Assembly: GCA_025963725.1 (NCBI GenBank)
Contig: JAOQAE010000002.1
Location: forward strand, 62,001-126,000
Length of the DNA: 64,000 nucleotides
Direction of reading: 5' to 3'
Source: Bacteroidota bacterium
GTDB lineage: Bacteria; Bacteroidota; Bacteroidia; 2-12-FULL-35-15
The notes beneath the pieces are model-generated. The model had not been told where the DNA came from, made no database searches, and saw nothing but the letters and a program-made list of their open reading frames with translations. The stretch's first letter is position 1. The number at the start of each line of letters is the position of its first letter. Shown one piece after another: positions 26,248 to 57,910 of this stretch. The position numbers and the translations under genes are program-made.

Positions 26248-26363
26248 GTTCTCGATACGCTTCATTTCATTCCGCACTCGAACTGACGGGGATGTCATCC
26301 TGAGGAACGAAGCATCTCTTTTTTATGAGATTCTTCGCTTCACTGCGTTACGCTCAGAATGAC
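26248..26363. repeat. Interspersed half-elements
   Basis: 26248-26287 carries TTCTCGATACGC to ACTCGAACTGAC, half of the 87-bp element. 26294-26318 (GTCATCCTGAGGAACGAAGC) and 26327-26363 (GAGATTCTTCGCTTC to CAGAATGAC) form an inverted pair of the GTCATYCTGAG family. Confidence 0.7.
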
Positions 26364-26775: not shown

Positions 26776-27036
26776 GTAATCTACTAATTACGAATCTATA
26801 CTAATCTACGAAATACGAATCTGTACTAATTTGCGAATAACGAATAAATACGAATTTACGAAATTGGAACGTCATTGCGAGGAGGTACGACGAAGCAATC
26901 TCAACTACGAATTACGAATTTGTACTAATCTACCAATTACGATCAGTTCTGATGATCCATCTGCGCACGATCTATTCCCCTCTTGAGAGGGGCCAGGGGT
27001 GTATTATGCACAGATTACGATTCTATGAACTCCCAA
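26776..27036. repeat. Repeat-rich spacer before halogenase stop
   Basis: Contains several TACGAATTACGAAT-like short repeats (about 26784-26940), one GTCATTGCGAGGAGG to AAGCAATCTC element (26871-26901), and a CCCCTCTTGAGAGGGG palindrome near 26977-26992. No gene is visible. Confidence 0.65.
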
Positions 27037-31790: not shown

Positions 31791-32519
31791 TCAACTGTAC
31801 AGTCCGCCGTTCACCGATAATACCTGCCCTGTGATGTAGGTGGCTTTATCGGAGGCGAGGTAGCTCACTGCATCCGCTACTTCTTCCGCGGTGCCGAAGC
31901 GTGCCATCGGGATCAGCTGCTTGAAATCCTTTTCGTTGATGCCTTCTGTCATATCGGTTTTGATGAATCCCGGCGCCACGCAGTTCACGGTGATGTTGCG
32001 GCGTCCGACTTCCTGCGACAATGCTTTGGTTGCGCCGATCACGCCTGCTTTTGCAGCGGAGTAATTGGTTTGTCCGGGCAATCCTTTCAGTCCCGACAAT
32101 GAAACCACATTTACAATGCGTCCCCATTTCTTCACCAGCATGCCTTTGATGATGATGCGCGTTACATTGTAAAATCCGCCGAGGCCAATGCCCAGCACGG
32201 AGTTCCACTCTTCATTGCTCATCCACATCAGCAGCTGGTCCTTGCGGATGCCTGCGTTGTTCACTAATATTTCAATGGTCTTGTCCGGGTTCTTTTCGAT
32301 CCAGCCGTTGAGCGCCGCATCTACTTCCGCCTGGTTGGATACATCAAATTTCATGATCTCTCCGTCGCTGCCTTTCTCACGGATCATGGCGAGGGTTTTC
32401 TCGGCCTCATCCTGCTTCGAGGTGTAATTAACGATCACGTAGTGCCCGGCTTCTGCCAGCTGCACGCAGATCGCGCGGCCGATGCCCCTTGAACCTCCTG
32501 TTACTAATGCGTATTTCAT
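31791..32519 (-). CDS. fabG: 3-oxoacyl-ACP reductase FabG-like (SDR)
   Basis: A 242-residue short-chain dehydrogenase/reductase. The cofactor loop is GGSRGIGRA (about 8-16), NNAG is near 87, and the catalytic Ser-Tyr-Lys set is seen in VVSLSG and NYSAAKAG. Length and C-terminal YITGQVLSVNGGLYS match FabG. It reduces 3-ketoacyl-ACP to 3-hydroxyacyl-ACP with NADPH. It is the only ketoreductase visible in the cluster, so it probably serves the aryl polyene cycle. It is separated from the next upstream gene (the ammonia-lyase) by a 641-nt repeat array. Confidence 0.9.
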   Translation of the reverse strand: MKYALVTGGSRGIGRAICVQLAEAGHYVIVNYTSKQDEAEKTLAMIREKGSDGEIMKFDVSNQAEVDAALNGWIEKNPDKTIEILVNNAGIRKDQLLMWMSNEEWNSVLGIGLGGFYNVTRIIIKGMLVKKWGRIVNVVSLSGLKGLPGQTNYSAAKAGVIGATKALSQEVGRRNITVNCVAPGFIKTDMTEGINEKDFKQLIPMARFGTAEEVADAVSYLASDKATYITGQVLSVNGGLYS

Positions 32520-33160
32520 ATATCAATTTTTGAATTGTTGAATTTTTGATCTGGAGAATTTAGATCCTGCTCTCTTCAGATCATTCGTTATTCATTTTTA
32601 TTTGCCAACTGCTAATCATTAACAAGATTCTTCGCTTCATTGCATTACGCTCAGAATGACAGTTCTAATTAACCTGGTCTTCAATGTGACTCCGGACCAA
32701 TCGCCTACTGCTCAATTGCCCACTGCCAACTTTTAAAAGATTGCTTCGGTCATACTTCCCTCGCAATGACATTCTAAATAACCAACTGCACGCTTGCCAA
32801 CTGCTCAATTTGCAACTGCTAATCATTAACAAGATTCTTCGCTTCATTACATTACGCTCAGAATGACATTCTAATTAACCAACTGCTCATTTTTAAAAGA
32901 TTGCTTCGGTCATGCTTCCCTCGCAATGACATTCTAATAACCAACTGCACGCTTGCCAACTGCTTAATTTGCCAACTGCAAACTTTTAACAAGATTCTTC
33001 GCTTCATTGCATTACGCTCAGAATGACAGTTCTAATTAACCAACTGCGCATTTTTAAAAGATTGCTTCGGTCATGCTTCCCTCGCAATGACGGTTCTAAT
33101 TAACCTACTCTTCAATGAAGGCTCCGATCTAATTGCCTACTTTTTTTAATTGCCTACTGC
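32520..33160. repeat. Alternating two-family repeat array with 160-bp period
   Basis: Non-coding, 641 nt. Unit A (about 53 bp, AACAAGATTCTTCGCTTCAT to CAGAATGACA) starts at 32621, 32828 and 32988. Unit B (about 43 bp, AAAAGATTGCTTCGGTCAT to CTCGCAATGAC) starts at 32735, 32895 and 33056. From 32735 onward the pattern is a tandem repeat with period about 160 bp (B, spacer with CAACTGC words, A, spacer). Units A and B each have short inverted ends (ATTCT/AGAAT and ATTGC/GCAAT). No direct-repeat and unique-spacer pattern of a CRISPR is present. Confidence 0.85.
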
Positions 33161-34717
33161 CTACTGATTAATCAACTCCGGATTATTATTCTGCAAATAA
33201 AACTTGATCTTTTCTAATTTCTTATACAATATCGTATCGTCTTCAAAGCGCGGAACAATGCTCCGGATCTGGTCATACACTGCTCTTGATGCTGTTGAAA
33301 GCATGCTGTTGAACTTCAGCGCATCAACCGCCTGCGCATTGCTGAGCAGCTCTATCGCCAGCACCTGGTAAGCGTTCTCCACCACTTTGGCGGTAATGAG
33401 CGCAGCGTTGGTTCCCATGCTCACGATGTCCTGGTTATCGTTGTTGTTGGAGATGCTGTGGATGTACATCGGGTTCGAGAGCATTTGATTTTCGGCCGTT
33501 GTAGAGGTTGCTGTAAATTGTGCAGCCTGCATTCCCAGGTTCAGTCCCAGCTTCCCGAGGTTCACAAACGGAGGCAGCTTACCATTCAGCTTGTCGTTCA
33601 TCAGGAAGTTCAGCTGGCGCTCCGCAAGCATGGTCATTTTGGTGAGCGCGATCTTCAGCTTGTCCATTTCCAGCGCTACGTAATCGCCGTGGAAATTGCC
33701 GCCATGAAAAATATTGTTATTCGCTTTGTCAACGATCGGGTTGTCGTTCACAGAGTTCACTTCGTTCTCTAAAATAGTTTGTGTAAAGGTGATGGTATCC
33801 AGCACGGGGCCGAGGATCTGCGGGATGCAGCGGATGGAGTAGTACTCCTGCACCTTGTCCTTGAACACTTCCACGTTGGCATGCTGCGTTCCGTCGAACA
33901 AATGCTCTTCGCGCTTGCGGATGAGCTTGCTGTCGCCCATGGCCTTGTTCATGGCGCGGGCTATGGAGCGCTGGCCTACGTGAGGCTTTACGCTGTTGAG
34001 CTGCTCCGAAAAGTGGTCGCTGTATGATTCCACCATCTCGATGATCATGTTGGAAGATACAAGGCTCCAGTTAATGAGCTGCTTTGCATGCAGGAGGTTC
34101 ACCATTGCAATGCCTGTCATTACGGAAGTTCCGTTGATCAGTCCCAATGCTTCACGCAGGTGGATGGTGATCGGCTTTACGCCCACTTCCTTATACACAT
34201 CAGCGGTGGGGCGAAGCTCGCCCTTATACGTTACTTCTCCTTCGCCGATCAGGTTCAGCGCCAGGTGGGCAAGCTGCACAAGGTCGCCGGAAGCGCCAAC
34301 GCCGCCATGCTCAAAAATTTGGGGATAAACATCTTTATTGATGAGCTCTTTTAGCAGGATCACCACATCCGGGTGGATGCCCGAAAAGCCCTGCATGAGC
34401 GAGCTTAAGCGGCAGATCATTGCCGATTTCACATGCGTGTCGGAAAGGCGGTTGCCCGCGCCGGTACAGTGGCTGCGGATGAGGTTGTATTGCAGGCTCA
34501 GCTGGTCCTCCTCGCTGATCTTGTATTGCGCCATAGGGCCGAAGCCGGTATTGATGCCGTAGATGAGCTTGTTCTTGGAGAATGACTTCAGGAATTCGTG
34601 GCTTTCGGTAACTTTTGTAAGGGCAGCAGCATCCAGATCGATCTTTTCCCCCGTGTACAGGATCTTGTGAAAGTCGTTTGCGGTCAATGGCTTTGTTCCA
34701 ACGTTGATCATATTCAA
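33161..34717 (-). CDS. Aromatic amino acid (tyrosine) ammonia-lyase
   Basis: A 518-residue member of the HAL/PAL/TAL family. The MIO cofactor forms from Ala142-Ser143-Gly144 in GGVGASGDLVQLAHLAL. The selectivity loop reads NLIRSHCTG. The overall sequence is strikingly like the remembered Flavobacterium johnsoniae tyrosine ammonia-lyase of the flexirubin cluster, which shares YGINTGFGPMAQY-type and ATSTTAENQMLSNPMY-type blocks and the same RSH loop. It would convert tyrosine to 4-coumarate and ammonia, giving the aryl starter. Histidine ammonia-lyase is the alternative from the loop alone, but cluster context favours tyrosine. It is the first gene of the minus-strand cluster, with a promoter box 30 nt upstream. 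Confidence 0.9.
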   Translation of the reverse strand: MNMINVGTKPLTANDFHKILYTGEKIDLDAAALTKVTESHEFLKSFSKNKLIYGINTGFGPMAQYKISEEDQLSLQYNLIRSHCTGAGNRLSDTHVKSAMICRLSSLMQGFSGIHPDVVILLKELINKDVYPQIFEHGGVGASGDLVQLAHLALNLIGEGEVTYKGELRPTADVYKEVGVKPITIHLREALGLINGTSVMTGIAMVNLLHAKQLINWSLVSSNMIIEMVESYSDHFSEQLNSVKPHVGQRSIARAMNKAMGDSKLIRKREEHLFDGTQHANVEVFKDKVQEYYSIRCIPQILGPVLDTITFTQTILENEVNSVNDNPIVDKANNNIFHGGNFHGDYVALEMDKLKIALTKMTMLAERQLNFLMNDKLNGKLPPFVNLGKLGLNLGMQAAQFTATSTTAENQMLSNPMYIHSISNNNDNQDIVSMGTNAALITAKVVENAYQVLAIELLSNAQAVDALKFNSMLSTASRAVYDQIRSIVPRFEDDTILYKKLEKIKFYLQNNNPELINQ

Positions 34718-42114: not shown

Positions 42115-42408
42115 GCTGTTCACCACGGATTACACGGATTGCACAGAGCAGTGCTTGTCACCCGCCCACTTTCTCGACTTCGCTCGAAATGACAACGCAC
42201 GCTGCTTGTCATTCTGAGCGGAACGGAGTGAAGTCGAAGAATCTTCTTAATCGAATTTTATAGCGTCAGTTCGAGTAGCGAGGTACGAGTGTATCGAGAA
42301 CAAGCTTACGCACTTCTCGATACTCTCCCTTCGGTCGAACTCGAAGTGACAACGCGCGCAACCCACACCGATTCGTAATTCGTAAATTCGTACAAATTCG
42401 TATCCGTA
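42115..42408. repeat. Repeat cluster after crtD
   Basis: Non-coding. Holds 42170-42193 (ending CTCGAAATGAC), 42208-42245 (GTCATTCTGAGCGGAACG to GAAGAATCTT), the 87-bp-type element at 42265-42350, and ACGAATTCGTAAATTCG-like words at 42370-42402. The cluster ends exactly where the small frame at 42409-42567 ends. Confidence 0.75.
42265..42350 (+). repeat. 87-bp inverted-repeat element, copy 2
   Basis: Begins GTCAGTTCGAGTAGCGAGG and ends CGAACTCGAAGTGAC. It is the reverse complement of the element at 19444-19530 with about eight differences by eye. Its two halves are themselves imperfect inverted repeats. Confidence 0.8.
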
Positions 42409-57382: not shown

Positions 57383-57910
57383 TTTCAATTGATTTGATTC
57401 AATTGAAATGAGTACAAGTTCATGCCATTGCGAATTACGAATAGTACGAATTACGAATGCCGCGAATAGTACGAATTACGAATTGTCCGAATATGGGTAC
57501 GAATCGCGAATTGTTACGAATTTACGAATCTGTGCCTGTCAGTTCGAGCGAAGTCGAGAACGTGTGTGGAGTCTTAAATCGGAGTGTCATTGCGAGGAGG
57601 CACGACGAAGCAATCTCATAAACGAAATGCAAATTATCTGTATGAAATACGAATCCTACAAAGTGTGTGCGCCTGTCAGTTCGAGCGGAGTCGAGAACGT
57701 GCGAGAGGTAGCTTCGCTGATATTTACGAGCGAAAGTGGATGTCTTCTTTAGAATTTTCACTCATCTTCAATAGCCCCGATCGCAGCGGAAATCCTTTGC
57801 CACTTTTTCAGTGGCGAAGATTGAAGTGAAGAGCGGGAGAGATGCATCCAACGAAGAGTGATCACCTGCTCCGGATAAAAAAAATTGTGATATTTAATAG
57901 AGGGGAAAAC
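57383..57910. repeat. Repeat cluster upstream of lipoprotein paralogue
   Basis: A 528-nt stretch without a credible gene. 57425-57528 carries many ACGAATTACGAA words. 57538-57569 and 57675-57706 are two copies of GTCAGTTCGAGCG to GTCGAGAACGTG, half-elements of the 87-bp family. 57586-57617 is GTCATTGCGAGGAGG to AAGCAATCTC. From 57710 to 57910 I see nothing recognisable. Confidence 0.75.

Follow-up and report, generated by a model that had tools for sequence, protein, structure and literature searches.

The window analysed here is a stretch of bacterial DNA of 64,000 nucleotides. It contains the first two genes of a pigment operon, flxA, coding for a flexirubin tyrosine ammonia-lyase, and flxB, coding for a flexirubin SDR reductase, both of which score above the NCBIfam equivalog cut-offs (Table 1). 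Between them lie six palindromic cores of 32–35 nt, arranged in the order A-B-A-B-A-B and in a single orientation (window positions 32626–33091), with the GTC end of all six placed 5′ on the minus strand, which is the sense of both flanking genes. The tandem alternation of two palindromes, its location in the gap that separates the ammonia-lyase gene from fabG and the presence of single copies elsewhere in the window had already been proposed in the initial annotation, and all three were borne out: TRF gave a period of 160 bp, the flanking genes proved to be flxA and flxB, and two solitary A and two solitary B copies were located. The near-constant spacing claimed there holds for the B-B steps (160 and 161), but not for the A-A steps (207, then 160) or the A-B steps (113, 66 and 67).

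Table 1. Features of the flxA–flxB locus and solitary copies of the same repeats (window coordinates)
Feature	Position	Strand	Remarks
flxB, flexirubin SDR reductase, downstream gene	31791..32519	-	NF053542, 394.8 bits, cut-off 340
A1 core, GTCATTCTGAGCG..GCGAAGAATC	32626..32660	-	GTC end 5′ on minus strand
B1 core, GTCATTGCGAGGGAAGTATGACCGAAGCAATC	32739..32770	-	
A2 core	32833..32867	-	
B2 core	32899..32930	-	
A3 core	32993..33027	-	
B3 core	33060..33091	-	copy to which the one B in the G018 gap (C40:90896-90927) aligns
160-bp higher-order repeat (B + A + filler), 2.4 copies	32731..33109	-	TRF; 92% matches, score 651
flxA, flexirubin tyrosine ammonia-lyase, upstream gene	33161..34717	-	NF053541, 825 bits, cut-off 700
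Solitary A copy	26329..26363	-	
Solitary B copy	26871..26900	+	adjoins TACGAAT filler
Solitary A copy	42208..42243	+	matching G018 gap also has an A
Solitary B copy	57586..57615	+	matching G018 gap also has a B

Since the A and B monomers are 62–74% alike outside gaps and a near-identical leader of about 15 nt precedes each of the six cores, the array is to be regarded as a higher-order repeat of one monomer type of about 64 nt, the two versions of which differ in their arms. The palindromes themselves are weak: a 5-bp outer arm and two inner pairs are predicted in four of the six copies, and B2 and B3 are predicted to fold otherwise.

The search for further copies proposed in the initial annotation gave 17 A-pattern and 50 B-pattern matches in the own genome (49 B after subtraction of one overlapping hit), and since reversed-pattern controls gave none, chance can be excluded for these copies. 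Both kinds of core, A and B, are members of one dispersed family, whose frame is GTC-[AT NNN]-GA ... GA-[NNN AT]-C. The base preceding GTC in the own-genome loci is C in 22 of 30 B and T in 17 of 17 A copies. Searching 400 kb of the own contig with GTC-AT-NNN-GA...GA-arm-C, a pattern that itself demands AT at the arm start, yielded 29 elements of six arm types (ATTCT 10, ATTGC 10, ATCCT 5, ATGCT 2, ATTCC 1 and ATGTT 1), and three arm rules other than the reverse complement yielded no elements in the same 400 kb. When complementarity was not imposed, the arms were complementary in 29 of 46 anchored pairs there (shuffles: mean 6.5, maximum 14) and in 17 of 23 pairs in the congener G018 (mean 5.1, maximum 11); the 5 of 6 pairs in another congener, G009, are not separable from chance (mean 1.8, maximum 5). 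Arm complementarity is kept across the subfamilies, so the arms change together and the frame stays.

The B pattern is present in 39 of 59 relatives, the own genome included, with 0 to 182 copies per genome in 36 genomes of the genus, and the A pattern in 13 of the 59. Among the matches listed, A places with long loops belong mainly to the own genome and its nearest relative, G018 (7 hits), and a few long A-type loops were also found in other families (G173, G265 and G390). With a looser A frame, matches were obtained in 104 of 395 Bacteroidota genomes representing 53 of 171 genera (reversed control, 0), and the inner part of these elements varies greatly across Bacteroidota. In 39 typed inner parts of 15 nt from among the matches listed, 166 of 195 stem cells pair (shuffled mean 159, maximum 165), an excess that is small because one stem type dominates. 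Long A loops of the own genome can be read as five-base steps, GAGCG-TAATG-CAATG-AAGCG-AAG, as if grown by pentamer slippage, and a short form listed for other genomes is GAGCG-AAGCG-AAG. The heptamer GCGAAGC is an ultra-stable DNA mini-hairpin; as a driver of the REP family, the inner GCGAAGC is inapplicable to the array, whose copies do not have it intact. The same REP family forms further head-to-tail clusters, which have steps of 73–112 bp and are located in the own genome at C7:188357-188644, C7:730171-730283, C7:1530082-1530219 and C4:525671-525803 and in G018 at C40:139392-139621.

The genomic context of the family was studied in 1.2 Mb of the own genome with 52 REP hits, two of which overlap others and two of which lie inside crude ORFs. 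Copies of the family lie between genes and are under-represented in divergent, promoter-bearing gaps, which account for 1 of 32 REP-bearing gaps vs 126 of 539 overall (p 0.003; these gap statistics rest on crude ORF calls). Copies of the A type (ATTCT arm) in co-directional gaps are oriented like the genes at 15 of 17 loci, namely 10 of 12 in the 1.2 Mb and 5 of 5 elsewhere (p 0.0023, uncorrected for four arm types examined); A copies inside a crude ORF (L020, L021) and in convergent gaps, which are uninformative for orientation, were left out, and for this reason a tally of 14 of 15 that takes in convergent gaps was set aside. For B copies in co-directional gaps, 3 in sense and 5 in antisense, no bias was found. 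A replication-strand cause of the A orientation was rejected on a weak comparison over 400 kb, where the GC skew is mostly weakly positive from 0 to 300 kb and the orientation of A switches with the gene strand. Filler of the TACGAAT type is found near 9 of 13 B copies and 0 of 33 copies of other arm types at an intergenic background of 6.3%, the six array copies being left out of this count and one overlapping B hit kept in; the filler of the array itself differs and is of the CAGTTGG type. Single p-values in these comparisons are optimistic, since the arm types were compared after the data had been seen. Within the window, minisatellite-like filler TACGAATTACGAAT, with which B copies are strongly associated, occupies positions 26777–26862 and 57427–57529, and an Rfam Flavo-1 RNA (RF01705, 71.1 bits) lies at 57769–57844. 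Neighbouring A and B copies of the own genome at distances of up to 250 bp form 12 direct pairs (5 in the array) and 3 inverted pairs with the tags outermost; for all arm types in the 1.2 Mb, there are 6 inverted and 10 direct pairs, two of the direct ones arising from overlapping hits to a single element. The overlapping B hit C7:730155 was left out of the A/B neighbour count and kept in the counts for the 1.2 Mb.

The history of the site was followed in one genome per species by measuring the gaps between the protein alignments of flxA and flxB; 30 loci of the genus were examined, and both genes were readable in 19 of them, the own one included. In the own genome the gap measures 644 nt and holds six cores; G018 and G009, whose HAL proteins are 97% and 95% identical, have gaps of 144 and 197 nt, respectively, with a single B each. 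An exact-arm element is absent from 16 of the 18 congener gaps, so that only these nearest two have one; the gap of G028 (258 nt) contains a degenerate B-like stretch that falls outside the exact-arm count. The 15 gaps remaining after G018, G009 and G028 measure 8–46 nt in 8 cases, 93–158 nt in 5, 553 nt in G005 and 1,030 nt in G012, a distant 18th congener; for the other 17 congeners together this means 8–46 nt in 8, 93–258 nt in 8 and 553 nt in one. The gap of G005 is without an exact-arm element, and long spacers must therefore arise in other ways too. In the genus, then, the number of copies does change between species, as the initial annotation had envisaged for strains, from six cores in the own genome to one in G018, one in G009 and no exact-arm element in the other 16 gaps. 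Its statement that the array breaks the operon went too far, as the order flxA–flxB is kept in the 18 other readable loci and it is the spacer that grew.

Comparison at the level of bases was possible with G018 (86% identity), G009 being dropped at about 74%. In the alignment with G018, it is B3 that both genomes share, and of the sequence lying between B3 and flxB about 495 nt are specific to the own genome, so judging from this alignment B3 is probably the founder copy of the array. As only the nearest two congeners carry one B each, a B-bearing spacer appears to have expanded in the own lineage, and the site comparison supports expansion beside an ancestral B.

An A element would have joined this ancestral B within the flxA–flxB spacer, and the A+B unit would then have been duplicated by recombination or replication slippage. 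Duplication between the short CAGTTGG/GCAGTTGGCAATT filler repeats may have given the alternation of A and B. The degree of preservation of cores and spacers was tested in three of the six within-type pairs, and in all three the cores are more alike: A3-A1 (core 35/35 vs spacer 41/58, p 1.6e-4), A2-A1 (34/35 vs 42/56, p 0.007) and B3-B1 (31/32 vs 25/31, p 0.053), the spacer alignments, with their short filler repeats, being less certain than those of the cores. The other pairs, read without a test, have little contrast (A3-A2, 34/35 vs 55/60; B3-B2, 32/32 vs 26/29; B2-B1, 31/32 vs 27/30), which would be in keeping with a recent duplication as the origin of units 2 and 3. Cores under constraint or kept alike by homogenisation would produce this contrast, but so would the repeated insertion of similar cores, and independent insertion of identical cores retains some residual probability as the origin of the array copies. 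Summarizing these data, we consider it quite likely that the array arose in this one lineage by tandem expansion of two subfamilies that both belong to a single dispersed REP family close to the CGTC-tagged REPs.

The position of the array inside the conserved gene pair flxA–flxB, in one orientation, might also be explained by a regulatory function, in which repeated RNA hairpins terminate, attenuate or process the flxA–flxB transcript. The mostly sense orientation of A copies in co-directional gaps of the 1.2 Mb, the location of 8 of 12 sense copies at most 100 nt from the upstream stop codon and the better preservation of some core pairs in comparison with their spacers would agree with this. 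Against it, the terminator-like region suggested in the initial annotation was not supported. The search for an intrinsic terminator (GC-rich stem followed by a T run) at positions 32400–33300 gave 0 (shuffles give 0.7), the copies, folded as RNA and as DNA, are not more stable than their shuffles (z-scores, -0.44 to 0.51), and the whole stretch of 641 nt folds worse than 20 of 20 shuffles (z +2.48). A terminator or strong RNA structure was rejected on these results, and 8 of 17 congeners manage with a gap of 8–46 nt and no exact-arm element. Six promoter-like consensus matches vs 2.3 expected may mirror the repeated unit and were not counted as evidence. In our opinion, the regulatory explanation is improbable. 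Transcription of the flexirubin operon is expected to run through the array, making it a long 3′UTR-like spacer. Instead of termination, its likely effect would be either modest (uncoupling of flxB from flxA, a slight change in mRNA processing or stability) or close to neutral, and a modest one could come about through the length of the spacer or through mRNA processing.

Two further explanations concern mobility and recombination. That A and B are REPs moved by the RAYT/TnpA-REP (Y1) transposase of the own genome, as is thought for GTAG REPs, would be in line with one Y1 transposase match in the own genome, the existence of inverted A/B pairs and a weak correlation of Y1 and B counts in 36 genomes of the genus (Spearman 0.36, p 0.03), but the own Y1 gene adjoins many copies of a different palindrome, GCTCCTACGGAGC, and a GTCAT..GAG..CGAA..ATC element was found in the fetched flanks of 0 of 47 distinct Y1 loci. 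These flanks extended up to about 1.5 kb, being shorter at contig ends in several cases, and the 47 loci (31 and 20 further regions minus 3 repeats and one non-Y1) are part of more than 100 places. Moreover, a Y1 match is missing from G006, G010 and G031 in spite of 15, 23 and 10 B copies, respectively, while five congeners have Y1 but lack B. Mobilisation by a RAYT, which remains unsupported by the Y1 loci in spite of the correlation of the counts, is thus very improbable. The palindrome GGCCGCTCCTACGGAGCTTGA and its variants beside the only own Y1 match (L053, 1860–2420; C6, about 384 kb) are apparently the REP family of that Y1. By analogy with dRS3 in the NIME of Neisseria, a phage or integrase could also use the array as a site of insertion or as a substrate for recombination, an explanation to which we would give hardly any weight. 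The layout of NIME, in which short palindromes lie among other repeats in intergenic arrays (PMC3898611), matches that of the array. In the course of the other analyses, no integrase or prophage came to attention at an A/B element. Nevertheless, dRS3, filed as CGTC-1 in PMC3733652, is ATTCCC(N8)GGGAAT and is accompanied by RS repeats (PMC3898611), whereas the array has the arms ATTCT/AGAAT and ATTGC/GCAAT, and its filler consists of short tandem CAGTTGG or TACGAAT repeats instead of RS elements.

Another route of spread is indicated by the congener G032, which has 182 B hits; of the 100 places listed for B, 78 belong to inverted pairs by a hand count. An element of about 200 bp with the termini TGACTATCGGAAAGTTTATACC / TGAGTATCCGGAACTTTGTACC occurs in this genome, one end giving 65 hits at three or fewer mismatches. 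In 30 loci, both halves of a B dimer lie at most 150 nt from that end in 17 (L311 and L312 among them being one place), one half in 9 and neither in 4. A flanking word of at least 7 bases is shared in 12 of 17 two-ended rows, among which one locus is represented by two rows (L318, L319) and one row has no right flank (L330), as compared with a mean of 3.2 and at most 8 for shuffled partners; the clearer target duplications have 9–12 bases and the terminal repeats about 22 bp. The B-type REP dimer forms the centre of many copies (L306–L335; for example, L308, L316 and L323), and other copies are without a dimer or have another palindrome (L307, L318, L334). This element is a MITE with TIRs and target duplications, often carrying a REP dimer. 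A search for its autonomous partner gave one DDE_Tnp_1 gene with no matching terminal repeat nearby, and inspection by eye revealed no such MITE around those A and B copies of the own genome that were inspected. A broader reading, which we find possible but rather doubtful, is that these REPs form a frame-and-cassette superfamily across Bacteroidota with co-changing arms, an exchangeable inner stem-loop and a constant frame GTCATTCTGAG...CGAAGAATC or GTCATTGCGAG...CGAAGCAATC, which would be devoid of its own transposase and would spread in the middle of TIR-bearing MITEs, as in G032, before multiplying locally through tandem duplication, as in the array.

The mode of spread and the function of CGTC-tagged REPs are treated as open questions in the literature (PMC3733652). 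The REP-carrying MITE of G032 bears on the first of them, and the broader reading, if true, would answer how such orphan REPs spread. The genus offers genomes with 0–182 B copies, a collinear relative and a copy-rich relative with REPs inside a MITE, and the location of the array in a pigment operon provides colour as an easy readout, so that both mobility and an effect on expression are testable.

Among known systems, the family is closest to the CGTC-tagged REPs of Di Nocera et al. (2013; PMC3733652), which have Bacteroidetes among their listed hosts, carry a CGTC tag at one end with TGTC and CCTC allowed, have stems of 8–9 bp and loops of 4–5 nt with other loops in a few families, and are reported without a dedicated transposase. 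Similarity concerns the tag (CGTC in B3, TGTC in the other five cores), the first two stem pairs (A-T and T-A in all six cores) and the intergenic location, mostly 3′ of genes, with several stem types per genome. As to a transposase, elements of the family flank 0 of the 47 Y1 loci, and the lack of a dedicated enzyme may be a further common trait. The avoidance of divergent gaps also agrees with the published placement of REPs mostly between unidirectional and convergent genes (PMC3733652). The differences are in the stem, which in the array consists of an arm of 5 bp and, beyond a GA/GA(A) internal loop, two more pairs with a loop of 9–13 nt, and in the arrangement, since the array is head-to-tail with an alternating higher order of two families, and according to PMC3733652 inverted (HH) dimers dominate, head-to-tail dimers are negligible and clusters are rare outside Neisseria and Wolbachia. 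G032 copies with GGGC TTTTC GCCC would have 5 + 4 pairs, as read from the sequence without folding. Because the tag, the AT start, the location and, as far as the 47 loci go, the missing Y1 agree, but the stem, the loop and the head-to-tail order differ, we regard the family as a variant rather than a member of the CGTC-tagged REPs. With REPINs and GTAG REPs it shares inverted pairs with the tags outermost, three in the own genome and those counted in G032, but differs in the tag, which is TGTC or CGTC instead of GTAG, and in the absence of a flanking Y1 gene at the 47 loci. No head-to-tail A/B array of Bacteroidota was found described in the open-access literature searched. In Porphyromonas gingivalis of the same phylum, a MITE carrying a minisatellite has been reported (PMC4596501), which is similar to the MITE of G032 in that a small repeat is nested in it, and differs from it in the passenger, which in G032 is a REP dimer. 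On the whole, what is new about the array is its arrangement; the genome repeat itself is of a known kind, and the array does not represent a new kind of element.
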